Below, piece by piece: positions 2,690-29,437 of a DNA stretch of 29,437 nt (position 1 is the stretch's first letter; each line of letters opens with the position of its first letter). Under the pieces are notes generated by a model. That model was given only the letters and a program-made list of their open reading frames with translations. It was not told the origin of the DNA and did no database searches. The stretch spans positions 1 through 29,437 of the IMG/VR virus record IMGVR_UViG_3300050821_010575, one strand, 5' to 3'. The DNA comes from a virus. The position numbers and the translations under genes were made by a program.

Positions 2690-4084
2690 TTACGAAGCCG
2701 GAACGTCGAGGGCGACGAACGGGCTGTGCTCGTCGACCTTGTTGCCCGAGCTGTTGACCTTGTACGCGTACGTGCTGGTGGGGATCGGGATGCCACCGGC
2801 GCGAACGATGAAGCGGTACGTGGTGAGGTCGTTGATGAACGCGAAGTGGATGCTGGACTCGATGGTCAGAGCCTGGCGAAGCGCCAGCGCGTAGAAGTCA
2901 CCGTTGATCAGGGCCACGTCGCCGAGCGTGCCGAGCGGCGAGAGCAGGTCGCTGATGATGACCGGCAGCCCGAGCAGGAGCATCTGCGGCCGGTTGTTCA
3001 GGTCACGCAGGAACGTGACCATCGTGTTGTTGGTCGTCTGCATCGCGAAGAGCTGCGCCAGCACGCGGCGCGAGATCATCCAGCAGCTCTTCGGACCGTG
3101 CGTGTGACGCTCGTACATGTTGAACGCGTCAGGTGCTGTGAACGTGTTCGCCGTCGCGCGGTTGACCTTGATCAGCGCGCCGTTCGCGGAGTTCAGCGCT
3201 CCGAGCGGGTTGTTGCCGCTGTTGTCGCCGTCGATCGTGCACTGCTCGTTGACGGCGTTGACGGCCTGCTGACCGACCGCGTTGCTGACCTCGGTCGGCA
3301 GCTCACCGGTGAAGTCGTCGACCAGGATCTCGTCGCCCATCTGCGTGATGGCGGCGAACTTGAACACCGTGAGCAGCCGCTGCCCGAACTGCGGCGTGCG
3401 AGCCGGCTTGGTGCTGCCTTCGCCGATGATCGTGACGTCGGCGATCTGGCCGGCCATCGGGCGGTTCAGGGTCGAGTCGCCCGTGTCCTGGATCAGGTAC
3501 GGGATGCGCAGCGAGCGGCCGGGGACGTTGTACGTCCGCGCGGTCTGCATGATGCCGGGCTGCTGGTTGGTGACGGAGAAGATCTCGGCCACCTGCGTGA
3601 GCGGCAGGAGGTACTGACCGCCGTCCGTGTCGCCGGTGATCTGGCGGGTGAACTTGTCCAGCTTCTCGATGAACTTCTGCTGCGAGGCGTTCGGTATGGC
3701 GCGGCCGTTGAGGACGCGGAGCAGCTCCCGCTGCGACCCGAACTCACCCATCACCTCGTCGTTCAGGCTGCGGATCTGCTCCGCGGCCGTCTTGCGGTCC
3801 CGGCGCAGCAGCTTCCGCTGCTCCTCGGGCGTCTCCTCGCTCGTTTCGGCGCCCGCCCTGAAGGCGCGAACCTCTTCCTCGCCGCCCTGGCGGCGAATCT
3901 CGGCTTCCGGCGTGAACTCCGCCGTGGCCTGGGCCCGCATCTCCAGCGAGCGGATGCCCTCGATCGTCTTGTTGACCTCGTCGACGGTCATCTCCGTCTT
4001 CGGGTCGGCAAGCTTGACGCGCAGCGCGTCGGCCTGCGAGCGAAGCTCATTGGCTTCGCGATTCTTGGTGACCAGCGGTGCCAT
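2690..4084 (-). CDS. HK97-fold major capsid protein
   Basis: 464 aa from ATG 4084-4082. A longer open frame to 4306 overlaps the protease gene and is low-complexity Arg-rich, so I reject it. Residues 1 to about 120 are highly charged and helical (E-L-R-S-Q-A-D-A-L-R, E-E-E-V-R-A-F), like the delta/scaffold domain that the prohead protease removes. The following part has classical HK97 capsid features: G-G-Q-Y-L-L-P at the start of the N-arm, V-P-G-R-S-L-R-I-P-Y, T-P-Q-F-G-Q-R, the I-L-V-D-D spine-helix region and the late G-L-P-V-I-I-S-D...L-I-N-G-D-F-Y segment. It lies 25 nt after the protease stop. No strong Shine-Dalgarno precedes the ATG, which is odd for such an abundant protein; translation may be coupled to the protease gene. 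Confidence 0.93.
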   Translation of the reverse strand: MAPLVTKNREANELRSQADALRVKLADPKTEMTVDEVNKTIEGIRSLEMRAQATAEFTPEAEIRRQGGEEEVRAFRAGAETSEETPEEQRKLLRRDRKTAAEQIRSLNDEVMGEFGSQRELLRVLNGRAIPNASQQKFIEKLDKFTRQITGDTDGGQYLLPLTQVAEIFSVTNQQPGIMQTARTYNVPGRSLRIPYLIQDTGDSTLNRPMAGQIADVTIIGEGSTKPARTPQFGQRLLTVFKFAAITQMGDEILVDDFTGELPTEVSNAVGQQAVNAVNEQCTIDGDNSGNNPLGALNSANGALIKVNRATANTFTAPDAFNMYERHTHGPKSCWMISRRVLAQLFAMQTTNNTMVTFLRDLNNRPQMLLLGLPVIISDLLSPLGTLGDVALINGDFYALALRQALTIESSIHFAFINDLTTYRFIVRAGGIPIPTSTYAYKVNSSGNKVDEHSPFVALDVPAS

Positions 4085-5269: not shown

Positions 5270-5293
5270 TATCTGCATCAGCGTGCGTGAATC

Positions 5294-5313
5294 AGGTCAC
5301 ACCGAGCGTCACT
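5294..5313 (+). repeat. Copy C of the GGTCAC tandem motif (partial)
   Basis: The 20 nt from AGGTCACACCGAG onward match the outer arm of the two inverted composite repeats at 21414-21469 and 25395-25450, except for C in place of G at one position. It contains two (G/C)GTCAC half-sites 12 nt apart. The second arm of the composite repeat is absent here. It lies between the stop at 5337 and the promoter at 5241-5269. Confidence 0.6.
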
Positions 5314-5594: not shown

Positions 5595-7982
5595 CTACTC
5601 GGCCTTCTCGTCGTAGAACAGCAGCGTGCAGCGGCAGTTGATGACCTCGTCGGCGTCGCCGTTCTGATCGCCGGGGTACGCGCAGCCGTTGTCGAAGATG
5701 TCGTCCATGTCGATGCGGACGCCGTCGAGCTCAGCGTGGCTGTCGCGGACCTTGTCATCCTGCTGCGTCAGCCACTCCTTGCTCTGCATGACGCCCTGCG
5801 CCTTGGCCGTGTCGTGCTCGCCCTGGTTCAGCGCCCCGACCGTCTCGGTGCGGGCGATCATCGTCGCGCGGCTGATTGCCGTCCCGCCGAACACGGTCTG
5901 GTCGACAAGCTTCGCCACGTCGCCGATGCCCATGCCAGCCTTGCGCCCGACGGTCACGGCCGCGGCGACCTGCTTCGCTGAGGTCTCGGTGACGTAGCTC
6001 GCGAGCTGCTCGACGCGGTCTTGGATCGCCTGGTAGACGGCTGGGTTGTCGAGGTTGAAGTCGAGGCCGAGCTCGTCGAGCAGCTCCTGCCCCGCCACGG
6101 TGTACGTCTTCCCGATCAGGGCTCTGAACTCGTTGATCCAGTTCTTATAGTACTCCGCGTCCTGCTTGTAGCCGCGCTTGATCGCGTTCAGCGCCGCTTG
6201 GATGTACGGATCGTCAGAGCTGAGCGCGTCGTCAGCTGAGTCGCGCGTCTCGATGCTCCGGTGCGCGTCGGCCTCCGCCTTCTGCTTGTCGAAGATCTTG
6301 CGAACGCTCTCCTTCTCGTCGCCAAACCGCCGCAGCGCGGCGCGCTTGTACTCCGCCTCCTCCTTCGTCGCTCGCGAGTCGAACGCGGACCAGAGCAGCT
6401 GGCGCTGCCCGGTGGTGAGCTTCACGCCTCGCTCGATGAGGCGGATGCCCTTGGCGAGGCGCGAGCGGGTCAGGTGGCTGATCGAACGGTCTGGCTTCAG
6501 CGGCGTCTTGTCGTTCTTCTCGGGCGCTGGCTCAGCCTCGGGCTTCGCAGCGGCGACCGGGGCAGCACCCGCGGGGTCGCCTGGCTTCGGCACGGCGGTC
6601 ACGGTGCCGGCCGTGGGGTCTGGTGTCTCGTCCTCCTCGTCTAGGTCGATCACCACGCTCGAGGCAAGCACCATCTGCCCCGTGTTTGGCAGCCAGACGG
6701 TGTCGGTGGGCTTGATCGTCGGGTCGAGGTGCAGCGCCTCGCGGGTCTCCTCCCAGCTTCGCGCGCCGCGGATGAACTCCGTCGTCACGCGATCAGACGT
6801 CGCCTTGTCGTCCTCGACCAGCTCCTGCAGCGTCTTGCGGTGATACTTGATCCACATCAGCCCGTACTCGGGGCTGAGGCTCGCGTTCAGCGCGTCCTCC
6901 TCCACCGCGAGGAGCGGCTCAACCGTGTGGCTGATGAGCCGCGACCGGGCCTCGGCGTACTGCGATCCACTGAGCCCGGAGTCCTTGATCGCGGAGCTGA
7001 TGCCGATCATACGCGGGTCGACGCCGATCGCGGCGCAGATGTCCTCGCGTGAAACGCGGCGCAGGTCCGGAAACTCGAGGTCCTTGAGGTTGAACCCGAT
7101 CGCCTTGACGTCCTTGACGCCGCCGACGAAGGCCGCTCGGCCGCGCCGGCCGCGCTCCACGTTGAGCTGCTGCCAGCGCTCCTGCGCCGTTTCGGCGTCC
7201 GCTTGGCCAACCTGGTCAGCCATGATGAAGGCCAACGTCGGCGTGCCGTCGTTCGTCACGATCTGCCGCACGTACTTCGTCGCCTCGGTGTCGCCGGCGA
7301 TCGAGTTGAGCGCCGTCGCGACGCGGGGGAAGCCGAAGACGTCGGGCAGCCAGGAGGGCGCGAGCTGGAGGTCGCGGAAGTGGACGATGTCCTCACCGGC
7401 GGTGGTGCGCACCCGCCCGAAGTGGTCGATCCACATGTACGCGATGACGTTCTGCTCTTGGTCGACGTAGACGACCTGCATGCCCTCAGGGTTGATCCGC
7501 TTCAGCGCGGCGACCGGCCCGCCTGGGCTGAGCCGCACCATGCGCCAGAACGCGTTGCCGTACGTGATGAAGTCGAGCGCGAACGCGGCGCGGAGCTGCC
7601 GGGCCGTGGAGCTCGACGACGGCGCGTCGAGCAGCTTCTGGAGCTTATTGATCAGCGGCGCCTCGACCTTGCCGTCAACGTCACGGTACGTGCGCAGCGG
7701 CACGGTGCACGCGACGTCGGTGATGACGCGCATGCAGGCCTGGACGACGGGGTGCTGCTGGAAGCCAAGGATCCGGACGTTCATGCCGGACTCCTTGAAG
7801 ATCTGCGGCGGCAGCCCTCGCACCGGGCCAGCGATCGACTTCAGCTTGCCAGCTTCGCCGGCGTCGACGCCCCAAGCTGGGATGCTCGAGCCTGGCGACG
7901 CGTCTGGAAAGCCAGCGTTGTTCGACGCGCTCGCCCGCTGCGCGAGGCGCGAGCTGACGAGCTTGACGAGAGAGGAGGCCAC
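5595..7982 (-). CDS. Portal protein fused to MuF-like head morphogenesis domain
   Basis: 795 aa. Residues about 40-430 match HK97-type portals: H-P-V-V-Q-A-C-M-R-V-I-T-D-V-A-C near 77-92, the G-N-A-F-W-R segment, D-I-V-H-F-R-D-L near 195-205, and D-P-R-M-I-G-I followed by a Q-Y-A-E-A-R helix. A Glu/Pro/Ala-rich linker follows (about 435-500), then a helical region. The last 100 residues carry the MuF/SPP1-gp7 signature: A-R-T-E-T-V-G-A-L-N, W-L-T-Q-Q-D-D-K-V-R-D-S-H and the final V-I-N-C-R-C-T-L. Portals (about 400-500 aa) and MuF proteins are usually separate neighbouring genes. The GTG start (7982) lacks a good Shine-Dalgarno; an in-frame ATG at 7784-7782 has AAGGAG upstream and is a possible alternative. 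Confidence 0.88.
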   Translation of the reverse strand: MASSLVKLVSSRLAQRASASNNAGFPDASPGSSIPAWGVDAGEAGKLKSIAGPVRGLPPQIFKESGMNVRILGFQQHPVVQACMRVITDVACTVPLRTYRDVDGKVEAPLINKLQKLLDAPSSSSTARQLRAAFALDFITYGNAFWRMVRLSPGGPVAALKRINPEGMQVVYVDQEQNVIAYMWIDHFGRVRTTAGEDIVHFRDLQLAPSWLPDVFGFPRVATALNSIAGDTEATKYVRQIVTNDGTPTLAFIMADQVGQADAETAQERWQQLNVERGRRGRAAFVGGVKDVKAIGFNLKDLEFPDLRRVSREDICAAIGVDPRMIGISSAIKDSGLSGSQYAEARSRLISHTVEPLLAVEEDALNASLSPEYGLMWIKYHRKTLQELVEDDKATSDRVTTEFIRGARSWEETREALHLDPTIKPTDTVWLPNTGQMVLASSVVIDLDEEDETPDPTAGTVTAVPKPGDPAGAAPVAAAKPEAEPAPEKNDKTPLKPDRSISHLTRSRLAKGIRLIERGVKLTTGQRQLLWSAFDSRATKEEAEYKRAALRRFGDEKESVRKIFDKQKAEADAHRSIETRDSADDALSSDDPYIQAALNAIKRGYKQDAEYYKNWINEFRALIGKTYTVAGQELLDELGLDFNLDNPAVYQAIQDRVEQLASYVTETSAKQVAAAVTVGRKAGMGIGDVAKLVDQTVFGGTAISRATMIARTETVGALNQGEHDTAKAQGVMQSKEWLTQQDDKVRDSHAELDGVRIDMDDIFDNGCAYPGDQNGDADEVINCRCTLLFYDEKAE

Positions 7983-8008
7983 TGGGTGAGGTGAGTGAGG
8001 GTGAGAAG

Positions 8009-9388
8009 CTAGCCGACGATGTAGATGCCCGAGCTGGTGATCATGAGCTCGGTGATGGCCCAGACGAGCGCGTCCATGCGATCCGGTGAAGGCAGCCCGA
8101 GGTCGAACCGCCAGGTGGTCATCTGGCTCTCGAGCAGCGCGTGGTAGCCGACGTGGTGCACCTTGCCCTGCTCGTAGAGCCCAACCACGGGCTCTGCGCG
8201 GGCGTCCTTGCCTCTCGAGGCGTTGACGCCCTTGTACGGGATGGCTGGGTCGATCTGACGGATGACGGTCTCGACCAGGTCGCCGCCGTTGTTGACCTCA
8301 CCGATGATGCGGTCGCCGTTGTACGCGTGGTAGAGCTCGACGCCCTTGCGAGCCCAGCCGTTCGGGCTGAACCGCCCGCTACCGTCGCTCAGCACGTACG
8401 CGTGCTTGTTGTCGCCAAGCCCGACCACGACGATGCCGGTCTCCGCGCTCGTCTTCTTCGACGTCACAGCTGGGTCGATCGCGACGACGATGCGAACCAG
8501 GCGCGACAGGTCCTTGCCGTTGATGCGGCTGCGCTCGATGAGGAGCGTGTTCCAGTGTGCGCCCTCGACGTCCTCGATCAGCTTCGCGTAGAGCTCCTGC
8601 TGACCGAGCGTGGTGCCCTCGTACTTGCGCACGACCTCGCTGATGAACGTCCTCGCGAGGTTGGCCAGGTTCTCGTACGTGGTGCCGATCGTCATGACGA
8701 CGTCGACGTGCTCCGTGACGCGACCGGCGCGCAGCTCGACGTCAGAGACGGCGCGTTTGTTGAGGTCGCGCATCATCGGCGTCGGCTTCGGCGTCGTGGT
8801 CAGCACGACCTGCGGGTCGTGGCCGAGCCGAAGGCCGAACATCAGCTGGTCGAGCGTCTCGGGGTACTGCCACGCGGCCGGCTCGTCGCCCCACGCCTTC
8901 TCGTGCTGCGGCCCGCGCAGCCGGTTTGGCTCCTCGGCTGAGTATAGCATCGCCGTGGCGCCGTTGGGCCAGCGCACGCGGCGCCGGCCAGGCTCGTAGA
9001 TGGGGCGCTCGTTCTCGGGGTCGTGCTCGCTGACGGCGATGATGCCGGACGGGCCCTCAACCATGACGTCGCGGACGTCCGAGCTTGTGGCGCCGACGAA
9101 CGCGACGCGTCGCACACCTTGCTGGACCCAGTGGCGAACGAGCTGCGCTCCGGTGCGGGTCTTGCCCCAGCCACGGCCGGCTTGGATGAGCCAGGTGACC
9201 CACTTACCAGGAGGTGGGAGCTGGTTGGGGCGCGCCCAGAACTTCCAGTCCGCCAGCAGCGTCGACGCAGCCTGCGGCGTCAGCTTGTCGAGGATCGCGC
9301 AACGCTCCGGCTCCGGCAGCGCGGCCAGCTTCTCCAGCAGCGAGAAGTGCTCGGCCTGCGCCGGGATCAGCAGCTCGTTGGCGGTCAC
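8009..9388 (-). CDS. terL: Terminase large subunit
   Basis: 459 aa, normal length for the ATPase-nuclease motor that packages phage DNA. ATPase part: Walker A A-G-R-G-W-G-K-T at 70-77, Walker B ending A-W-G-D-E (D168, E169), and coupling motif T-T-T-P-K-P near 197-202. Nuclease part (RNase H-like): V-V-A-I-D-P with D305, G-E-V-N-N-G-G-D with E364 and D370, and D-R-M-D-A-L with D439. GTG start 9388-9386 overlaps the stop of the upstream glycosyltransferase (GTGA), with TGAGG about 6 nt before it. It precedes the portal gene by 26 nt, the standard order. Confidence 0.95.
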   Translation of the reverse strand: MTANELLIPAQAEHFSLLEKLAALPEPERCAILDKLTPQAASTLLADWKFWARPNQLPPPGKWVTWLIQAGRGWGKTRTGAQLVRHWVQQGVRRVAFVGATSSDVRDVMVEGPSGIIAVSEHDPENERPIYEPGRRRVRWPNGATAMLYSAEEPNRLRGPQHEKAWGDEPAAWQYPETLDQLMFGLRLGHDPQVVLTTTPKPTPMMRDLNKRAVSDVELRAGRVTEHVDVVMTIGTTYENLANLARTFISEVVRKYEGTTLGQQELYAKLIEDVEGAHWNTLLIERSRINGKDLSRLVRIVVAIDPAVTSKKTSAETGIVVVGLGDNKHAYVLSDGSGRFSPNGWARKGVELYHAYNGDRIIGEVNNGGDLVETVIRQIDPAIPYKGVNASRGKDARAEPVVGLYEQGKVHHVGYHALLESQMTTWRFDLGLPSPDRMDALVWAITELMITSSGIYIVG

Positions 9389-9996
9389 GCCATCCTCAGC
9401 TCTGGGTACCGCTGGTAGAACCGCTCTCGCTCCGTGGGCATGTCGATCCGCTGCATGTGCTGTTCTGCGTGAGCGCGGTAGTTCCAGAGCGGCGACCTAA
9501 CGCAGGCCCACACCGCGCCGGCCTTGAACAGCTCGTATCGCGACGCCCAGTCGCTGTACGCCAGTTCGTTGCCAGCCTTCTCAACCGCGTCGATGAAGCG
9601 CGTTCGGCGGATCAGGGACGTGAACCAAGCGACGGGGCCGCGCCGCAGGTTCTCAAGCGTGAAGTGCGGGGCGCAGTATCGCGCGCTTCGCTGCCCAAAC
9701 TCCTGCACGTCGCTGTAGACGAGATCCGCTCCGATGCGATCAGCGGCGGCGAGAAACTCGCGCAGCGCATCTGGTGCCCGCAGCGTGTCGTCATCACACA
9801 GTGGCAGGATATACTCGCCCTTTGCGAGCCGCGCCAGGTCGACGATCTTCTCGTGGTACGGAAAGCTCGACATGCTGATGAGGACCTGCACCTGCTCCTT
9901 CAGCAGGTCCTGCGCCTCGACCGAGGCCAGCGTCTCACGCAGCATCGCCGCTCTTTCGCCGCCAGACGGGATGAGGACGCTGACGCGAGGGTTCAG
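9385..9996 (-). CDS. GT2-type glycosyltransferase inserted between terminase genes
   Basis: I extend this gene to a CTG codon at 9996-9994, which overlaps the terminator codon of the small-terminase gene as CTGA with AAGGA 9 nt upstream. This gives 203 aa starting N-P-R-V-S-V-L-I-P-S-G-G, the first beta strand that GT-A enzymes need; starting at ATG 9945 would remove it. Other GT2 features: L-R-E-T-L-A-S-V-E-A-Q, then G-E-Y-I-L-P-L-C-D-D-D-T-L with the metal-binding D-D-D, and a late W-N-Y-R-A-H. It probably transfers a sugar to an unknown acceptor. Its place between the two terminase genes is unusual, and tight overlaps at both ends show it is integrated in the operon. Confidence 0.75.
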   Translation of the reverse strand: MNPRVSVLIPSGGERAAMLRETLASVEAQDLLKEQVQVLISMSSFPYHEKIVDLARLAKGEYILPLCDDDTLRAPDALREFLAAADRIGADLVYSDVQEFGQRSARYCAPHFTLENLRRGPVAWFTSLIRRTRFIDAVEKAGNELAYSDWASRYELFKAGAVWACVRSPLWNYRAHAEQHMQRIDMPTERERFYQRYPELRMA

Positions 9997-10538
9997 AACT
10001 CGCCGTCCTTGGCCGCGATCTGGGCTGGCGGTAGGGCGGGCTGCACCTCGCGACCCGACATGCGCTCTGCAGCCTCACGAACAGCGTCGAGCAGCTTCAT
10101 GCGCGGATCTTCGCTGCCGAAGTTGAAGTTGTACGTATCGCCGCTCGCTGGCAGCTGCGAGGCCTTCTCGTTCAGCAGCTGCTCGCTCAGGTGCAGCAGC
10201 ATCGGGACGTTGCCCCTCATCGCGACGCGCCATCTCACCCGTCGAAGCGCGATCAGCGACTCTTCGCGCCCCTGCTCAGTGATGCGGCCGTACTGCGCCT
10301 TGAAGTCTGCGATCGGCACGTCGATGACCTTCGCGATCTCGTCGTCGGTCATGTACAGCGCTGCGAGGCGCCGCACCATCTCCGGGTCGATGGGGCGCTC
10401 TCGAAAGTCCTGGTTCTCGAGCGGGTCGAGAACCTCGCTCTCGAACAGGTCAGCCGGCAGCCGTCGTGGGATCGACGCGTCGAGGAGCGTCTCTCTGCGC
10501 CGCCGCTGTCGGTGAAGGCCTTCCGCTGCCACGCGCAC
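9993..10538 (-). CDS. terS: Terminase small subunit-like protein
   Basis: 181 aa. The central part has a helix-turn-helix-like stretch (M-V-R-R-L-A-A-L-Y-M-T-D-D-E-I-A-K-V) followed by I-T-E-Q-G-R-E-E-S-L-I-A-L-R-R and A-M-R-G-N-V-P-M-L-L-H-L-S-E-Q-L-L, a pattern I know from small-terminase-like proteins that recognise packaging sites. It is the first gene of the leftward structural operon and is followed (after the GT) by the large terminase. The start may be GTG 10538 or the in-frame GTG at 10532-10530; the latter is better spaced (8 nt) from AAGGA. The C-terminus (P-A-L-P-P-A-Q-I-A-A-K-D-G-E-F) is a flexible tail. Confidence 0.75.
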   Translation of the reverse strand: MRVAAEGLHRQRRRRETLLDASIPRRLPADLFESEVLDPLENQDFRERPIDPEMVRRLAALYMTDDEIAKVIDVPIADFKAQYGRITEQGREESLIALRRVRWRVAMRGNVPMLLHLSEQLLNEKASQLPASGDTYNFNFGSEDPRMKLLDAVREAAERMSGREVQPALPPAQIAAKDGEF

Positions 10539-10568
10539 CGTCCTTGGTCAGTGATGATCGATCTAGGC

Positions 10569-10597
10569 AACATAGCACATGTGTGGCCAAAAGTACA
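10569..10597 (-). promoter_or_regulatory. Promoter-like site, leftward, for the structural operon
   Basis: The minus strand reads TGTACT, 17 nt, TATGTT, with the -10 about 30 nt before the small-terminase start. Hexamers and spacing match the other promoter-like sites. Being the only such site upstream of the terminase genes, it is the best candidate for the head-operon promoter and is divergent from the site at 11339-11367. Confidence 0.6.
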
Positions 10598-11246
10598 CAG
10601 GTGTCACCTCGAGTCACGGCAGGACGGCAAGGACTGGCCCACCGCGCCCGGGTAGTTATAAACATGCATGTGCCCGAGCGCTGCGCCATGGGCTGGTAAC
10701 CCCCTAAAGATGCAAGGATAGGCCATTCGAGATGCCTCAAGCACACTTCTAATCTCAAGCCAGGGTTACATGGGTTACAGGGTTACACGACCCTCTAGCT
10801 GGTAAGGACAGCGACGACGCTTTCGCTAAGTTGTTGCCCTGGCTACCCTTGCACCTTAGTGACCCACCCAAAGCCCGCGTTGCCGTGTAACTTCCTTGTA
10901 ACTTCACCTTGTAACAAAAAGTCACTTTTTGCAGCTGTAAGTGATTGCTGCCAAATGCTTTAGTGACGTGTAACCCCTGCTGCGCGTTACTCTTATGACA
11001 CAGGACTCAAATAGTAACTCGTATGTAGGTTTTGAGCTCACCCCTTGACCAGGCTACGCCTTGCCCCAGGCCTTCGTACGCCCTGCCATCGGCTTGTAAC
11101 CCCGACTGCTCACCCGGGGTGACTGCGGGTTACAGTGGGGTTACAAGCCTCTACGTTGTTTAGCACGAACCACTTGCAGCGTACGATTTGTGATATTGTT
11201 AACAACTGAAGTTACAAGCGGGTTACAGCTCCTGCGCAGCGAGGCG

Positions 11247-20944: not shown

Positions 20945-21415
20945 ATGACGGAGCGGAACTGGTGGTCCAACCACGTTCGGCCGGCGCTGCACCGGCCAGC
21001 TGAGCGGTGCGTCGCTGAGAAAACTCAGGACGCGTTTAGAAAGGGCGCGCCTGACGTGACCATGTGCGCGCGCGGCAAGGTGCTTCTCTTGGAGCTGAAG
21101 TTCGTCGACGCGCTGCCGAAGCGGATCACCGATCGGCCCTACGACCTCGGCCTCACCGCCGAGCAGCGCATCTGGCTGGAGGCCTGGTACCAAGCGGAGG
21201 GCCGCAGTGGCGTGCTGGTCGGCGTCGAGGATGGCCGCTGCTTCTACGTCGGCTGGCGCATCGCCCGTGACCCGTGGACCTGGGGCAACCTCGAGACGAT
21301 GGTGACCTGGCTCAGGTGGAAAGGCGTGGGCCAGGAGCCCAAGCTCTCACTGCTTCCGAAGCTCCTGGCCACCGGGGCCCTCGACGCGCACAGCGCCCTG
21401 CCGGCAGTGCTCTAG
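20945..21415 (+). CDS. PD-(D/E)XK (VRR-NUC-like) nuclease
   Basis: 156 aa. R-K-G-A-P-D-V (D37) followed by L-L-L-E-L-K (E50, K52) is the PD-(D/E)XK active-site arrangement, and the later L-T-A-E-Q-R-I-W-L-E-A-W and G-V-L-V-G-V resemble the Q-containing helix and last strand of VRR-NUC/Holliday-junction resolvase-like phage nucleases. Probable role in recombination, branched-DNA resolution or DNA degradation. Its stop codon overlaps repeat A. Confidence 0.75.
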   Translation: MTERNWWSNHVRPALHRPAERCVAEKTQDAFRKGAPDVTMCARGKVLLLELKFVDALPKRITDRPYDLGLTAEQRIWLEAWYQAEGRSGVLVGVEDGRCFYVGWRIARDPWTWGNLETMVTWLRWKGVGQEPKLSLLPKLLATGALDAHSALPAVL

Positions 21416-21469
21416 GTCACACCGAGGGTCACTGTCTCACAGCAGGATGATAGGTACTATTCACCCCGG
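21414..21469 (+). repeat. Composite inverted repeat, copy A
   Basis: A 21-nt arm starting AGGTCACACCGAGG, then 12 variable nt, then a 23-nt arm containing ATAGGTACTATTCACC. Copy B at 25395-25450 is identical in both arms, has the same 12-nt gap and the opposite orientation. Outer arm: GGTCAC twice, 12 nt apart. Inner arm: ATAG-N3-CTAT dyad. It begins on the stop codon of the nuclease gene. Confidence 0.8.
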
Positions 21470-22589: not shown

Positions 22590-22618
22590 AACCTAACACT
22601 GATGCGGTTGAAAGTACA
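22590..22618 (-). promoter_or_regulatory. Promoter-like site for the DUF932 gene
   Basis: Minus strand: TGTACT, 17 nt, TAGGTT, followed by CAGCTC. AATGTAACAA lies just upstream (GTTACA on plus at 22635-22640), 16 nt from the -35, and overlaps the last codons of the zinc-ribbon gene. AGAGGAGA of the DUF932 gene lies downstream. Confidence 0.65.
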
Positions 22619-22627
22619 TCGCATCAG

Positions 22628-22801
22628 CTATATTGTTACATTGGGCTCCGGGACGACCTCGCCGCAGTACAGGCAGACCTTCACCGGCTCGACCATCTCC
22701 TTGCAGGTCTCGCAGACCCGCATATCGGGATCGACGGCGCGCTGGCAAAACGGGCACTCCAGCGAGATGTCCTCGTGCTGGCACTCTGATGGTTGCGTCA
22801 T
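22628..22801 (-). CDS. Small zinc-ribbon-like protein
   Basis: 57 aa from ATG 22801-22799, overlapping the stop of the upstream gene (ATGA). It has three CxxC pairs (E-C-P-F-C-Q near 15-18, V-C-E-T-C-K near 29-32, V-C-L-Y-C-G near 43-46) plus C7 and H9. These could bind two zinc ions, as in double zinc-ribbon proteins. Function unknown; it may bind nucleic acid or RNA polymerase. A longer in-frame start at 22921 would overlap the neighbour and is rejected. Confidence 0.7.
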   Translation of the reverse strand: MTQPSECQHEDISLECPFCQRAVDPDMRVCETCKEMVEPVKVCLYCGEVVPEPNVTI

Positions 22802-23040
22802 GACATGTTCTCCATGATCAGCGCGACGCAACCTGCTGCGGCAGCGAGCTCGAACGCCTCGTGCTCGAAGAAGTCCTCGGCCGGGTGAGCGTAGTAGAAC
22901 GTGGCCGTCTCCTCCAGCCAAGCGCGAAACTCCGCGCTGCGCTCGACGAAGCGATCATGAGGCAGCGGGTACATGTTCTGCGGCTGGAACTTCGCGGGGA
23001 TCTGCGCTTCCGTGAGAATCACGATCTCGGTCTGCGGCAT
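22798..23040 (-). CDS. Unknown small protein
   Basis: 80 aa from ATG 23040, with AGAGAGGAGAGAGG 6 nt upstream. Starts M-P-Q-T-E-I-V-I-L-T-E-A-Q-I-P, is aromatic-rich in the middle (F-R-A-W-L-E-E-T-A-T-F-Y-Y-A), and ends hydrophobic (A-A-A-A-G-C-V-A-L-I). First gene of a two-gene cassette with the zinc-ribbon gene. No family recognised. Confidence 0.7.
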   Translation of the reverse strand: MPQTEIVILTEAQIPAKFQPQNMYPLPHDRFVERSAEFRAWLEETATFYYAHPAEDFFEHEAFELAAAAGCVALIMENMS

Positions 23041-23088
23041 CTGACCTCTCTCCTCTCTGGCGTGTGTCCAGCAACATCATCTGAGCTG

Positions 23089-23117
23089 AATCTAATGCAT
23101 GACATTGAGGATGTACA
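23089..23117 (-). promoter_or_regulatory. Promoter-like site for the 80-aa/zinc-ribbon cassette
   Basis: Minus strand: TGTACA, 17 nt, TAGATT, followed by CAGCTC. AATGTAACAA lies 15 nt upstream of the -35 (23133-23138 for GTTACA). Directly before that lies the hairpin at 23146-23228. Confidence 0.65.
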
Positions 23118-23145
23118 CTGCCTCGGAAACTTGTTACATTGGCCC

Positions 23146-23228
23146 GTAGGAGCTCCCAAGCCGGCAGCTAATAGAACCATATTAGCGTACCGGCTTGAGA
23201 CCACCTCCATGAACCGAGGAGCTGCTAC
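23146..23228 (-). terminator. Nested hairpin at the end of the AAA+ ATPase gene
   Basis: Three nested pairings: GTAGGAGCTCC with GGAGCTGCTAC (10 of 11 bp; the second arm overlaps the ATPase stop), AAGCCGG with CCGGCTT (7 bp), and GCTAATA with TATTAGC (7 bp), closing a loop GAACCA. The promoter-like cassette starts right after it. There is no U-run, so it may be a factor-dependent terminator or processing site. The hairpin at 25018-25082 also contains GAACCA. Confidence 0.6.
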
Positions 23229-24925
23229 TCCTGCGTCGGCTTGAACCGCTTAGCGAACTCGATCGTTGCCAGATCGATCTCCTTGCCCTCGCTCTTGGCG
23301 ATCATCGATCCCAGCTTGAGCAGGTTCTTGATGTCGCGGCCCGTGAGCTTGGGATGCGCGGTCAGGATCTGCTCGATCGTCGCGTCGCTCAAGCTCAGCT
23401 TCGCGTTGTCGGCCAGCACGCGCCAGATCTTGCGCTGATCATCGACAGCGGGCGTGGCGTAGTCGATGCGCGCGATGCAGCGGCTGAGCACGGCGTCATC
23501 GATCAGATCCGCGCGGTTGGTCGTGAGGAACATCACGCCGCGGTAGTACTCGAGCACCCGCAGGAAGACGCCGACGATTGCGTTCTGCGTGAGATCAGAA
23601 CCACGCTTCGCGACGTAGACGTCCGCCTCGTCGAGCAGCAGGATAGCGCTCCACCGCTGCGAGCGAGCAAACACCTTGAGCAGCTCGGCTTCGAGCTCGT
23701 CAGGCGAGGTGCCCAGCTGGCTGCACTGGACCGTGTACAGCGGCTTGTGCGCGACCTCAGCGTAGACCTCGCTCGTGAGCGTCTTGCCGGTGCCAGGGAT
23801 GCCAGTGCATGCGATGATCGAGCCGCCGCCCTTGTTGCCGATGATGTCCTGAAAGCCGCCCGTGCCGGCCATGAGCAGGTCGACCAGATGACGGGCGTCC
23901 TTCGGCAGCACAAGCTTGCTGCCAAGCGTCGCGTCGTACACGTACTCCGTCAGCTGGTCGATGTAGACCTCCACCCGCAGCTGGCGGCTGAGATCAAACA
24001 CCATCAGCACGGTATGAAGCGGGATCTCGATGTAGGCGAGTGACTTGACTGGCTCTTCACCGCGAGCAGCGGCCTCCGCCTCGTCGTCCTCGTCTTTGGC
24101 CTCGTCCTTCTCACCAGCGCCAGGCAGCACGCCCCAGAAGTTCTCGTCGATGTCCGTGTCGCGCTCGAGTTTGTTGCGGCTACGGCTGCCGTGATCACCC
24201 TCGCTCGGGATGTCGATGACGACCCGCACGGCTGCGTCATCCTTATCCAGCTGCACGGCGCTCTGCTTCCGCCACCAGTCATCGCTAACCGCCTCGCTCA
24301 TGCCCTCACCGGTCGCTAGAAACTGCTTGCCGACGCAGTCAGATTCAGCTTCCCATCGCGCTTTGTCGCGCAGGTACGCTTCACGCAGCTCAGGCGTCTG
24401 CGTGACGTCCTTGCCGCGAACGTCTTCGAACCAGAACGTCAGATGACGGCTGCTGCGAACGCCGAAGCTCGAGTAGAGCAGCGAGATGTCGCAGTGCGCC
24501 GGCGTGACTCCACCGCCGTGGTGGCTGCACTTTGGCACGTACACGACGCTATTGACGTAGTACGGCAGCCAGCGCTCGTGATCTTTGATGTAGACGCGAT
24601 GGCCATCGACCGAGCGAAGGTGCTCTGTCAGCAGCGCGGTGAAGTGCGACATGTTGCGCGGCTTCTGACCGGCGGGGTTTTCCATCAGCTTCCGCCAGTT
24701 CGCGATGTCGTACAGCAGCGTCGCCGCGCCGCGGATCATCTGGCTGGAACCGCGGTCGAACGGCTTGACCAGCGCCTCGAGCTGCTCGACCTGCGCGGCA
24801 GTGTACTTGTTCAGCTCAAGCAGGACGTAGCTGCGATTGTAGAAGCTGTGCGTCTCGATCTGATACAGCCGCAGCTTGTCGAAGCCGATCGCCTGAGCCA
24901 GCGCCTTCGGGACCTTGATCTCCAT
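23225..24925 (-). CDS. AAA+ ATPase
   Basis: 566 aa from ATG 24925, with AGAGAGGAGAGAG 4 nt upstream. The C-terminal ATPase module has Walker A G-I-P-G-T-G-K-T at 375-382, Walker B I-L-L-L-D-E-A-D with D432 and E433, sensor-1-like T-T-N-R at 468-471, a candidate Arg finger near S-R-C-I-A-R (R482), and a helical lid. Residues 1 to about 340 form an N-terminal region with no motif I recognise, containing an acidic Asp/Glu/Ala stretch near 270-290. This suggests a remodelling ATPase (ring-forming) of a phage type whose partner is unknown. The adjacent promoters and the DUF932 gene suggest a common functional unit. Confidence 0.9.
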   Translation of the reverse strand: MEIKVPKALAQAIGFDKLRLYQIETHSFYNRSYVLLELNKYTAAQVEQLEALVKPFDRGSSQMIRGAATLLYDIANWRKLMENPAGQKPRNMSHFTALLTEHLRSVDGHRVYIKDHERWLPYYVNSVVYVPKCSHHGGGVTPAHCDISLLYSSFGVRSSRHLTFWFEDVRGKDVTQTPELREAYLRDKARWEAESDCVGKQFLATGEGMSEAVSDDWWRKQSAVQLDKDDAAVRVVIDIPSEGDHGSRSRNKLERDTDIDENFWGVLPGAGEKDEAKDEDDEAEAAARGEEPVKSLAYIEIPLHTVLMVFDLSRQLRVEVYIDQLTEYVYDATLGSKLVLPKDARHLVDLLMAGTGGFQDIIGNKGGGSIIACTGIPGTGKTLTSEVYAEVAHKPLYTVQCSQLGTSPDELEAELLKVFARSQRWSAILLLDEADVYVAKRGSDLTQNAIVGVFLRVLEYYRGVMFLTTNRADLIDDAVLSRCIARIDYATPAVDDQRKIWRVLADNAKLSLSDATIEQILTAHPKLTGRDIKNLLKLGSMIAKSEGKEIDLATIEFAKRFKPTQE

Positions 24926-24961
24926 CGTTCTCTCTCCTCTCTGAAGTGGTTGACCTGCTCG

Positions 24962-24990
24962 AATCTAGCAAGCGGCGATCTGAAAGTACA
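24962..24990 (-). promoter_or_regulatory. Promoter-like site for the AAA+ ATPase gene
   Basis: Minus strand: TGTACT, 17 nt, TAGATT, followed by CGAGC. AATGTAACAA lies 16 nt upstream of the -35 (GTTACA at 25007-25012). The 16 nt TTGTTACATTGGCCCG are identical at 23131-23146 and 25005-25020, so the upstream part is a copied module. Confidence 0.65.
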
Positions 24991-25017
24991 CAGCGTCAGG
25001 CATCTTGTTACATTGGC

Positions 25018-25082
25018 CCGTGAGGTCATTGGCCGGCTTGGATGATGAACCATATAAGCCAACCTGGCCGATGACCTCACGG
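25018..25082 (-). terminator. Long hairpin between the 73-aa gene and the ATPase promoter
   Basis: The 17-nt arms CCGTGAGGTCATTGGCC and GGCCGATGACCTCACGG pair along their full length in RNA with one G-U pair. An inner pairing GGCTT/AAGCC encloses a loop containing GAACCA. It lies 34 nt after the stop of the upstream gene, directly before the conserved promoter module. It is probably a terminator (no U-run) or RNase III-type processing site separating cassettes. Confidence 0.7.
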
Positions 25083-25116: not shown

Positions 25117-25338
25117 TCATGATACCTCGACCGTGAACCCCTCCTCGAGGTTCACGTAGTCGCCGACGCGATCCATGATCATGTAGTGGACCGTCTCTGA
25201 GTCGCGGGCCTCGTACACCTCTCCTGTCTTGCGGTGCCGGCAGGCGACCTTCGCCTGGCCCATGACGTGCTTGCGCGAGGCGTGCTGAAACCCGAGCACG
25301 CGCTGCGCCTCGGTTCTCGTGAGGAACTTCCGAGCCAT
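25117..25338 (-). CDS. Unknown small protein
   Basis: 73 aa from ATG 25338, GGAGGG about 9 nt upstream. M-A-R-K-F-L-T-R-T-E-A-Q-R-V-L-G-F is a helical start, H-R-K-T-G-E-V-Y-E-A a beta turn, and Y-V-N-L-E-E-G-F-T-V-E-V an acidic strand. No family recognised. It is the gene downstream of inverted repeat B and has no TGTACT-type promoter of its own. Confidence 0.65.
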   Translation of the reverse strand: MARKFLTRTEAQRVLGFQHASRKHVMGQAKVACRHRKTGEVYEARDSETVHYMIMDRVGDYVNLEEGFTVEVS

Positions 25339-25394: not shown

Positions 25395-25450
25395 CCGGGG
25401 TGAATAGTACCTATCATACAGCTGGTCTTCAGTGACCCTCGGTGTGACCT
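25395..25450 (-). repeat. Composite inverted repeat, copy B
   Basis: The reverse complement equals copy A (21414-21469) in both conserved arms (21 and 23 nt), with a different 12-nt middle. It lies between two leftward genes, 21 nt after the stop at 25472 and 56 nt before the start at 25338. Confidence 0.8.
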
Positions 25451-26788: not shown

Positions 26789-26816
26789 AATCTAAAACAG
26801 CGTACGGGAAAGTACA
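26789..26816 (-). promoter_or_regulatory. Promoter-like site for the 25.5-26.7 kb genes
   Basis: Minus strand: TGTACT, 16 nt, TAGATT, followed by CAGCT. The upstream TGTAAT/ATTACA (26838-26843) is a weaker relative of TGTAAC, 21 nt from the -35. It probably drives the cassette from 26739 down to 25472. Confidence 0.6.
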
Positions 26817-26855: not shown

Positions 26856-27017
26856 TTACTGGCCTCTCTGGCGTGCCAGCGCGGCACGCCCCTCGGCCTG
26901 AAGCGCGTGCTTTCGCAGCTCCTTGAGCAGCTGCACCATGTTCTGTGCATCTCGTGCACTTTTTGCGTGCGACTTCACCCAGGCCCAGATCGCCTTCTTC
27001 ACCTCAGTCTCTGTCAT
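26856..27017 (-). CDS. Small protein downstream of DNA polymerase
   Basis: 53 aa from ATG 27017-27015, overlapping the polymerase stop (ATGA), to TAA 26858-26856. M-T-E-T-E-V-K-K-A-I-W-A-W-V-K-S-H-A is an amphipathic helix, followed by a second (M-V-Q-L-L-K-E-L-R-K-H-A-L-Q-A). It is coupled to the polymerase, so a polymerase accessory role is possible but unproven. Its 3' end contains a hairpin (26870-26890). Confidence 0.7.
   Translation of the reverse strand: MTETEVKKAIWAWVKSHAKSARDAQNMVQLLKELRKHALQAEGRAALARQRGQ
26870..26890 (-). terminator. Hairpin in the 3' end of the 53-aa gene
   Basis: GGCGTGCC, a 5-nt loop, GGCACGCC. It lies within the last 12 codons of the gene, upstream of the TAA and of the next promoter, so it may attenuate transcription leaving the polymerase operon. 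Confidence 0.45.
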
Positions 27018-29437
27018 TTTCTAGGCGGCAGCGGTTTACAGTCACCCCAGTTAGGGCCGACCTCAGCCTCAGCTCTTACTGGTACTCTGAGCTTAGCGAC
27101 GCTCTCCATGATCTCTTTGATCTTGTATGCTTCTCTAACTCCTTTTGCGCCTGGAGGGACTGTTGCATCGAGCTCATCGTGAATCGTGAGGTGCAGGATC
27201 GTGTTCTCGTAGTCGATCTCCTTGTCGACCGCGATCATCGCCAGCTTGATGAGATCCGCCGCTGAGCCTTGCGTCAGGTAGTTCAGCGCGTTGTTCGTGC
27301 GCGTGAACACGGTTCGACCGCTGACGTTCAGCGCCTGGAACCGGCAGCGCCGCCCGCCGTGCGTGATGATGTAGCCTCTCGCCGCGGCCTTGTTCATGGC
27401 TCTCTTCGCGAGGATTCGCGCCTCTGGGATCTGCTCGTGGTACGCGGCCAGCGCTGCGTTGGCTTGGTCAGGCGGTAGCCCCGTCTGCGCGGCCATCTTC
27501 TTCTCACCCATGCCGAAGAGGATGCCGAAGTTGATGTTCTTGGCCGGGTCGCGCGCCATGCCGGTCAGGTCCGCCACCATCTGGTGGAAGTCCACGTCCG
27601 GCTCGTTGACGTACCGCTGCATCACGGCGCCACCAGCGTAGTGCGCAAAAAGCCGATATTCGATCTGGCTGTTCGCTGAGATGACGCCAGCGCCAAGCGC
27701 GTAGTTGTGGTGCTCATCAACCGTGAGCTGGTACATCGGCAGCATCAAACCAAGGTCTTCGACGAGCGTGACCTTGTGGTTCAACCTTCTTCGCGGATGC
27801 GCTGCAAAGCACGCTGAGCAGCGCCTGCCTGGCCAGGCCTGAGATGGCCAGAGCTGCATCATGGTATCGCACTCTGTGCACTTGACCTCTATCTTTCCAC
27901 CTTTCCAGCGGGGGTTGCCTTCACCTGCGTAGGACCTTCTGGCTTTCAGACCGACGCGCAGCGCGGCGACTCTCTTTTCCTCATCGACGCCGGTCCAGGC
28001 ATCAAGAGCTCGATGAACGGATATCGGCAGATACTCGAGGTTGTCAGGGCCGTAGTTGTGAGCATCGCGATCTTTGTGGTGCACCTCGTGACCTGGAGGA
28101 CACGGCCCAAAGTGCGCTTCGGCCACGAGCCTGTGCAGCTTGCTGTAGAGCCTGTTAGACCAGCTGTAAAAGGTAGGGTATCCCTTCAAGCCGTCTGTGC
28201 CTTTCCTGATCGCCGCGAGCGAGTCACCTGGCGCCAGCGCGCTGATCTTGCGCAGCTCGCCATCGCGCATGACCATCTTGTGATCACCAGATGCGATGAT
28301 AGCCTCACCGCTGTCGAGCGTCAGGCGCCAGGCTGGCAGCATGCCGACGCAGGCGGACGCGCTCACGTTGCCCCAGGTGATGCGGCCGTTCTTCCAAGAG
28401 AACACCTTGTCACCTGGCATGATGTCCTTGATCTGCTTCTTGCCTCGCGTCGTTTCGACCTCAGTCTCTCCGGCGAGGCAGAAGTCACAGCGCAGCCACT
28501 GACCGCCATCGTAGGCCGGGATGAAGAGCCCGCGGATCAGCGGCGCCCAGACCTTGTCGCGCTTCGGGATGTTCTGCGCGTTGAGCCCGCCGGCAGAGCT
28601 GAACCGGCCCGTGCGCGCGCCGCCGAACGCGGACTTCGCCTGGTGGAACGAGGGGTGGATGAAGCTGTGCGGCGTGATGTTCTTGAAGATGTAGTTGTCG
28701 ATGAACACGTTGCTGTAGTGCTTCGCCTGCTTCGAGGTGATGATCAGCTTCGCGACTGGGTGCTCGACCGTCTTCAGGAAGTCCTTGGTCACTGACGCGT
28801 TGCCAGCCTCCGTCTTCGGCGCCGTGATGCCAAGGCTCTCCAGCAGCTGCGCGACCTGCGCTGTCGACTCGCAGTTGAGCTCCACGCCGTGGTTGAGCTT
28901 GAACAGCTCAGCCTGGGCCTCATCGCGGCGCTTCACGAGCTCGTGCTTCAGCTTCTCCGCCTTCTCCGCGTCGACCCGCACGCCAGCGCGATACATCCGC
29001 ACCAGCACCGGCATCAGCGCCCGCTCCATGTCGTGCACCGTCGTGAGCCCGTTGACCGCGATCTTGGGCTGTAGGCAGAGCCAGAGCAGCCGGGTCAGGT
29101 TCGCGTCCTGCTCAGCGTAGGGCTCGACCAGGTCGCCTGGGCACCTGTGATAGAAGCCAGCCTCCTTGCCCTTCTTCACGTCGAACACCTGTCTGCAGTA
29201 CTCGTTGAGGTCGTCTGAGGCCTTGACGTGCTGCGGGCCGAGGTGCTTGATGCACAGGTTCTCGAGGCTATAGCTGGGCTCGTACTCGTCAAGCAGCGCA
29301 GCGATGACGCAGGTGTCATCCACCTGCTCGGGCAGGTCAAACCCAACCGCGCGGATCATGCGCAGATCGTACACGGCGTTGTGGAACACGGCCAGCACGC
29401 CTCTCGCCACCTCCTTGTTCCACCACTCTCTCACCTG
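27014..29437 (-). CDS. polA: DNA polymerase I-family (family A) replicative polymerase with an intein; 5' end outside window
   Basis: At least 807 residues, cut at the right edge. Part of a 3'-5' exonuclease is visible (H-N-A-V-Y-D with N19 and D23, later Y-A-E-Q-D-A-N near 105-111). The polymerase has L-N-A-Q-N-I-P-K-R before motif A, R-D-P-A-K-N-I-N-F-G in motif B (R-x3-K) and I-H-D-E-L-D in motif C. Motif A (D-F/S-Q-I-E) is split between Phe and Ser by a 270-residue intein. Motif B ends F-G-I-L-F-G-M-G, with Phe where the family normally has Tyr (E. coli Y766). Without the intein it should be a functional replicative enzyme. Confidence 0.93.
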   Translation of the reverse strand, partial: QVREWWNKEVARGVLAVFHNAVYDLRMIRAVGFDLPEQVDDTCVIAALLDEYEPSYSLENLCIKHLGPQHVKASDDLNEYCRQVFDVKKGKEAGFYHRCPGDLVEPYAEQDANLTRLLWLCLQPKIAVNGLTTVHDMERALMPVLVRMYRAGVRVDAEKAEKLKHELVKRRDEAQAELFKLNHGVELNCESTAQVAQLLESLGITAPKTEAGNASVTKDFLKTVEHPVAKLIITSKQAKHYSNVFIDNYIFKNITPHSFIHPSFHQAKSAFGGARTGRFSSAGGLNAQNIPKRDKVWAPLIRGLFIPAYDGGQWLRCDFCLAGETEVETTRGKKQIKDIMPGDKVFSWKNGRITWGNVSASACVGMLPAWRLTLDSGEAIIASGDHKMVMRDGELRKISALAPGDSLAAIRKGTDGLKGYPTFYSWSNRLYSKLHRLVAEAHFGPCPPGHEVHHKDRDAHNYGPDNLEYLPISVHRALDAWTGVDEEKRVAALRVGLKARRSYAGEGNPRWKGGKIEVKCTECDTMMQLWPSQAWPGRRCSACFAAHPRRRLNHKVTLVEDLGLMLPMYQLTVDEHHNYALGAGVISANSQIEYRLFAHYAGGAVMQRYVNEPDVDFHQMVADLTGMARDPAKNINFGILFGMGEKKMAAQTGLPPDQANAALAAYHEQIPEARILAKRAMNKAAARGYIITHGGRRCRFQALNVSGRTVFTRTNNALNYLTQGSAADLIKLAMIAVDKEIDYENTILHLTIHDELDATVPPGAKGVREAYKIKEIMESVAKLRVPVRAEAEVGPNWGDCKPLPPRK
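27671..28480 (-). other. Intein with HNH endonuclease in polymerase motif A
   Basis: 270 aa in frame, beginning C-L-A-G-E-T-E-V (first splicing Cys) and ending G-A-G-V-I-S-A-N before Ser. Block B-like S-G-D-H-K-M lies near its residue 70. The middle has H-E-V-H-H-K-D-R-D-A-H-N-Y-G-P-D-N-L-E-Y-L, an HNH homing-endonuclease motif, and a C-x-x-C...C-x-x-C zinc-finger-like pair. Block F (M-Y-Q-L-T-V-D-E-H-H-N-Y-A-L-G) is clear. The residue before the final Asn is Ala instead of the usual His, known in some inteins but often linked to slower splicing. Complete endonuclease and splice ends suggest an active mobile intein. Confidence 0.93.

Follow-up and report, generated by a model that had tools for sequence, protein, structure and literature searches.

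Two neighboring intergenic stretches in the phage genome fragment analyzed here each hold a long hairpin with the letters GAACCA in its loop region, followed by the same block, promoter and ribosome site, and the question is what this repeated arrangement does and why the loop letters are shared. The window is the whole of a 29.4-kb IMG/VR virus record (positions 1-29,437). We consider it somewhat more probable than the alternatives taken together (roughly 55%) that the two stretches of this tailed-phage genome descend from a single intergenic expression cassette and have since diverged, and that they work like the PeSL and ESAS elements described below. The window has a G+C content of 64% and is a fragment of a tailed phage. 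On its minus strand, the left part carries terminase, portal and capsid genes and the right part DUF932, zinc-ribbon, AAA+ and DNA polymerase A genes, while the genes between these two parts are on the plus strand; both cassettes sit in this right-hand block and are transcribed on the minus strand. The nearest proteins come from unrelated, mostly non-T4 phages of mixed hosts with less than 60% identity, and a search of bacterial genomes with the terminase found no relative. Rfam at the gathering threshold detected only a tRNA-Met (2575-2648) in the window. One contig (L039) is 99.9% identical and covers positions 5915-10818 only, thus not the 21-27 kb region. The nearest relative, contig IMGVR_UViG_3300039109_000042 (G001), of which roughly 36 kb (half) was read, is distant, with 48% identity in DUF932, 50% in DNA polymerase A and 46% in a deaminase. 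The DNA polymerase A gene of the window (27014-29434, minus strand) is split by an intein-like insert that has an HNH_3 endonuclease domain above the Pfam cut-off and a sub-threshold Intein_splicing match.

Read directly from the sequence, both inter-gene stretches, one from the 73-aa ORF to the AAA+ gene and the other from the AAA+ gene to the 80-aa ORF, have the same order in sense: hairpin, 18-nt block, promoter and AGAGAGGAGA, all on the minus strand. In the first stretch (cassette 2), the 73-aa ORF (25117-25338, no family match) is followed by hairpin H2 (25018-25082), whose loop region includes ATATGGTTC (GAACCA on the plus strand), and by the 18-nt block (25004-25021; ACGGGCCAATGTAACAAG in sense), which overlaps the end of the H2 stem by 4 nt. 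Promoter P3 (24962-24990; TGTACTTTCAGATCGCCGCTTGCTAGATT) scores 34.8 with the position weight matrix (PWM), while no window site outside the family exceeds 13.6, and the ribosome site AGAGAGGAGA (24933-24942) precedes the 566-aa AAA+ ATPase gene under P3 (23225-24925; Pfam AAA, 4.2e-14; PHROG 29662, 9.4e-71). In the second stretch, hairpin H1 (23148-23206), with a UGGUUC hexaloop and an outer stem that reaches the AAA+ stop codon, is followed by an identical copy of the 18-nt block (23130-23147), promoter P2 (23089-23117; TGTACATCCTCAATGTCATGCATTAGATT; PWM 29.5) and AGAGAGGAGA (23049-23058), then the 80-aa ORF under P2 (22798-23040) and a 97-aa double-zinc-ribbon ORF (22628-22921). The original prediction had placed long hairpins after the 73-aa and AAA+ genes, and a conserved promoter and ribosome site behind them, and these were found as described, with the promoters starting from 23117 and 24990 and AGAGAGGAGA from 23058 and 24942. 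The 16 nt that it described as shared, TTGTTACATTGGCCCG, occur exactly at 23131-23146 and 25005-25020, while the identity actually extends to 18 nt (CTTGTTACATTGGCCCGT on the plus strand) adjoining both hairpins. The ribosome site is found exactly at six genes (22536, 23058, 24942, 25706 and 26756 on the minus strand, 11516 on the plus strand), one of which, the gene from 25693, does not have this promoter family. AGAGAGGAGA would base-pair at nine positions with a 16S 3' end of the type usual in high-G+C Gram-positives, which gives only a hint of such a host for the phage.

The promoter step is well supported by recurrence of its pattern. Exactly seven promoters occur in the window, with weight-matrix scores of 29.5-36.5, while other window sites reach at most 13.6 and shuffled sequence at most 15; the score is partly circular because the seven sites built the matrix, yet the gap is large nonetheless. 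The consensus is GTGTACTTT-N13-TTAGRTT, or TGTACT-N17-TAGRTT, with a spacing of 16-17 (N16 at one site), and the two cassette promoters read TGTACT-N17-TAGATT, which is sigma70-like. Besides these two, the family includes P1 of the DUF932 gene (22590-22618, minus strand, PWM 32.3), P4 of a 63-aa ORF (26789-26816, minus strand, PWM 35.6), which has the same core without the CCAATGTAACAA box or GAACCA hairpin, P5 (20101-20129, plus strand, PWM 36.5), P6 (11339-11367, plus strand, PWM 35.3) and P7 (10569-10597, minus strand, PWM 30.4), the last also present in the 99.9% identical contig. With an exact pattern search, we found the core twice in G001, on the minus strand at 7375-7403 and 7660-7689, and a control search of that genome with the reversed pattern gave no match. 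These two copies are in tandem, each before a small ORF; the second is located shortly past the stop codon of the first. Both share an upstream element of their own, CCAAGGGAGTTTTWATTTCGGTA. The layout of promoter plus upstream element is therefore common to both phages, while the element itself is particular to each. Neither G001 promoter has a comparable hairpin (z -1.7 and -0.6), a GAACCA loop or the 18-nt block. The cassette layout as first proposed, running from the upstream gene end through hairpin, promoter and leader to the next gene, is borne out, with the promoter recurring as a discrete module (seven times in the window, twice in G001). Upstream of the G001 promoter at 7689, GGTACCCT-type repeats precede the tandem promoters and are perhaps the counterpart of the TGTAAC cluster in the window.

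That cluster is located between 10700 and 11500, where 13 TGTAAC/GTTACA boxes were counted as compared to 0.34 expected (at most three in 2000 shuffles). The boxes lie between P7 (minus strand) and P6 (plus strand), which are divergent promoters, and some of them are arranged as inverted pairs within a strong hairpin (11091-11149). The region looks like a control or origin region, and a DNA-binding factor shared by the TGTAAC boxes is possible. The 12-nt core of the 18-nt block, CCAATGTAACAA, has a third copy on the minus strand (22633-22644), 14 nt before P1 and in the 3' end of the zinc-ribbon ORF, with no long hairpin at this site (fold z -1.7); the 18-nt block thus belongs to the promoter and not to the hairpin. 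A separate 56-nt repeated element was found at 21414-21469 (plus strand) and 25395-25450 (minus strand), with the two copies inverted and 88% identical, and its core also at 5293-5313 (plus strand). It starts with AGGTCACACCGAGGGTCACT and includes the palindrome ATAGGTACTAT, and a stop codon precedes both long copies.

Together with the repeat at 11.09-11.15 kb, H1 and H2 are the strongest non-coding hairpins in the window. On the minus strand, H1 has a minimum free energy (MFE) of -41.8 kcal/mol (z -4.4) and H2 of -40.8 kcal/mol (z -5.9), with none of 200 shuffles equally stable in either case; the 65-nt H2 hairpin alone gives -36.9 kcal/mol (z -7.3), and the plus-strand fold of H2 (-45.6) is better than that in sense. 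The stems have about 24 pairs including interruptions, and H2 starts about 35 nt past the stop codon of the 73-aa ORF. No U-run follows H1 or H2, with GGGCCAAUGUAACAAG coming after both stems, unlike in a canonical intrinsic terminator, where a U-run succeeds the G+C-rich stem. U-less (I-shaped) terminators proposed in mycobacteria are, like H1 and H2, hairpins close behind stop codons (PMC12288462), although U-less termination is disputed even there according to Czyz 2014 as cited in that study. In our preferred reading, each cassette in sense would have a long hairpin shortly behind the stop codon of the preceding gene, then a TGTAAC-containing box upstream of the promoter TGTACT-N17-TAGRTT, a leader of 40-60 nt and a strong Shine-Dalgarno sequence, AGAGAGGAGA. 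Through the predicted promoter, the AAA+ gene would become one transcription unit and the 80-aa/zinc-ribbon pair another. Judging from its position and stability, the hairpin would most likely act as a U-less terminator of the upstream mRNA, or define and protect its 3' end, and by forming that end would insulate the transcription units. Not every promoter needs such insulation, since the genes just before P1 and P5 have no comparable hairpin.

The same stems may instead be sites where RNA is processed by RNase III-like double-strand cuts, or they may stabilize the 3' ends of read-through mRNAs, comparable to the situation between the early genes of T7. Their length of about 24 pairs, the missing U-run and the intergenic position immediately upstream of a promoter are consistent with this, but the H2 stem is bulged in sense and H1 and H2 have no conserved internal-loop geometry, making this alternative unlikely, if still worth weighing.

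The loop letters present a different problem. GAACCA is found at 23174-23179 in H1 and 25047-25052 in H2; ATATGGTTC, in sense, is identical in both hairpins and has no further copy in the window, and GCTWATATGGTTC agrees at 12 of 13 positions. Aligned locally, the two inter-gene stretches score 13.5, with their hairpin parts resembling each other in the same order; this value was reached by 13 of 5000 dinucleotide shuffles (about 0.003), while a 9-nt shared word alone is common by chance (3-6%). In the MFE structures, the H1 apex is a 7-bp stem closing the UGGUUC hexaloop, whereas the minus-strand H2 apex is a 3-bp AUG/CAU stem closing GUUCAU in a mostly open region. The stem arms have little sequence in common in register, and a consensus fold of the two copies (RNAalifold) gave no common stem and no covariation, only a spurious 6 bp. 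The original prediction of a kept loop on different stems holds for the letters, which are identical above chance, but not for the structure, as the apices differ and the conserved block, longer than GAACCA, runs into the 5' arm of H1. Most simply, the shared letters would be a remnant of duplication, which is indicated by the 18-nt identity flanking the two loops.

Another explanation is a DNA-level site for a protein or for recombination, in which the conserved motif GAACCATATWAGC and the TTGTTACA box stand at a fixed promoter distance and the inverted repeat plays only a secondary part. Both cassettes have exactly 57 nt between GAACCA and the -35 despite a 1-nt shift of the box in between, a constancy that could hint at constraint on the DNA, although two cases cannot establish it. 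The asymmetry of the conserved block, which enters one stem arm, and the central intergenic clustering of TGTAAC point the same way. We nevertheless find this reading doubtful, given only two copies, the five of seven promoters without GAACCATAT, and the long G+C-rich inverted repeats that it would leave as improbable chance occurrences.

Searches elsewhere returned no second source of the cassette. Scanning 2.9 million viral contigs for the exact 16-mer gave one unrelated inovirus-like coding match, and the promoter scan gave single matches in two A+T-richer contigs unrelated to the window. Among 106 matches to TGGTTC-N25-45-CCAATGTAACA, none is followed by the promoter core; one is near TGTACTT with the TAGRTT box not in place. 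BLASTN of the cassettes against phage records found none, and a covariance model built from the two copies found nothing below E 0.1 outside the window. Three further candidates were rejected: a flipped stem from the 10-nt word GCCGGCTTGG (H1 and the opposite strand of H2), dropped because of further copies of the word at 3402 and 9176; a loop-internal promoter with TATGGT as -10, which has no -35; and a tRNA T-arm-like GGUUC, where neither ARAGORN nor Rfam found a tRNA. The original prediction also had the loop recognized by an RNA-binding protein or RNase and looked to relatives for its conservation, and G001, the relative with the promoter core, lacks both hairpin and loop, which counts against that prediction by its own standard, although this relative is distant. 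That the UGGUUC loop is read by an RNase or RNA-binding protein, of phage or host origin, to coordinate the two upstream mRNAs is very improbable, as is a phage nuclease or RNA-binding protein that reads this loop or the GAACCATAT DNA motif, set at a constant spacing from the promoter, and couples transcript end to the next start: loop letters kept between differing stem arms and the above-chance alignment speak for recognition, but it is unsupported because there are two copies, probably from one duplication, with differing loop geometry and no covariation, the block runs into a stem arm, and neither a relative nor the other phage sequences searched carry it.

The original prediction had also described the genes served as moron-like. 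The 36 kb or so read from G001 do not contain the AAA+ gene, whose relatives occur in unrelated phages. This fits an accessory gene, but the gene's G+C content of 62.6% does not stand out from that of the remaining genome, so a recent arrival is not indicated. The cassettes themselves may be mobile.

Several known systems share parts of this arrangement. PeSLs of T4-type phages are cassettes of promoter and stem-loop that occur between genes in several copies by accessory genes (Arbiol 2010 and Comeau 2014, as cited in PMC4503421). In T4-type phages, the stem-loop of a PeSL ends transcription, and genes are shuffled among related genomes through recombination between the cassettes. The window resembles them in having a predicted strong sigma70-like promoter repeated between genes and packaged with a stem-loop near accessory genes, but phage and sequence are unrelated, only two full copies exist, and there is no canonical terminator. 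We do not claim PeSL membership: the phage is not T4-type by its nearest proteins, termination at the strong hairpins is only predicted, and the one near-identical contig does not reach the 21-27 kb region in which cassette shuffling would show. In cluster K mycobacteriophages, a conserved ribosome-site sequence (SAS) is found at several genes, about half of the repeats having an upstream inverted-repeat element (ESAS) (PMC3203893), and cluster EF Microbacterium phages have SAS/ESAS likewise (PMC7302621). The SAS consensus is the 13-bp GGGATAGGAGCCC, directly upstream of which are 17-bp imperfect inverted repeats that keep a constant sequence, whereas here the ribosome site is AGAGAGGAGA, the stem arms differ between H1 and H2, and the sigma70-like promoter stands between ribosome site and hairpin. 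The haloarchaeal virus HGTV-1 has a promoter-like box plus inverted repeat before genes, likened to PeSLs by its authors (PMC3950731); its promoter, however, is of the archaeal TATA type and occurs at most ORFs in the left part of the genome.

The promoter consensus is ready for annotation use, while the account of the loop is not yet. TGTACT-N17-TAGRTT provides a defined promoter for an uncultured phage lineage without close database relatives, and the same promoter recurs in a second, distant phage genome. If the cassette reading is right, the window would add another independent case of phages packaging a stem-loop and promoter between small genes.
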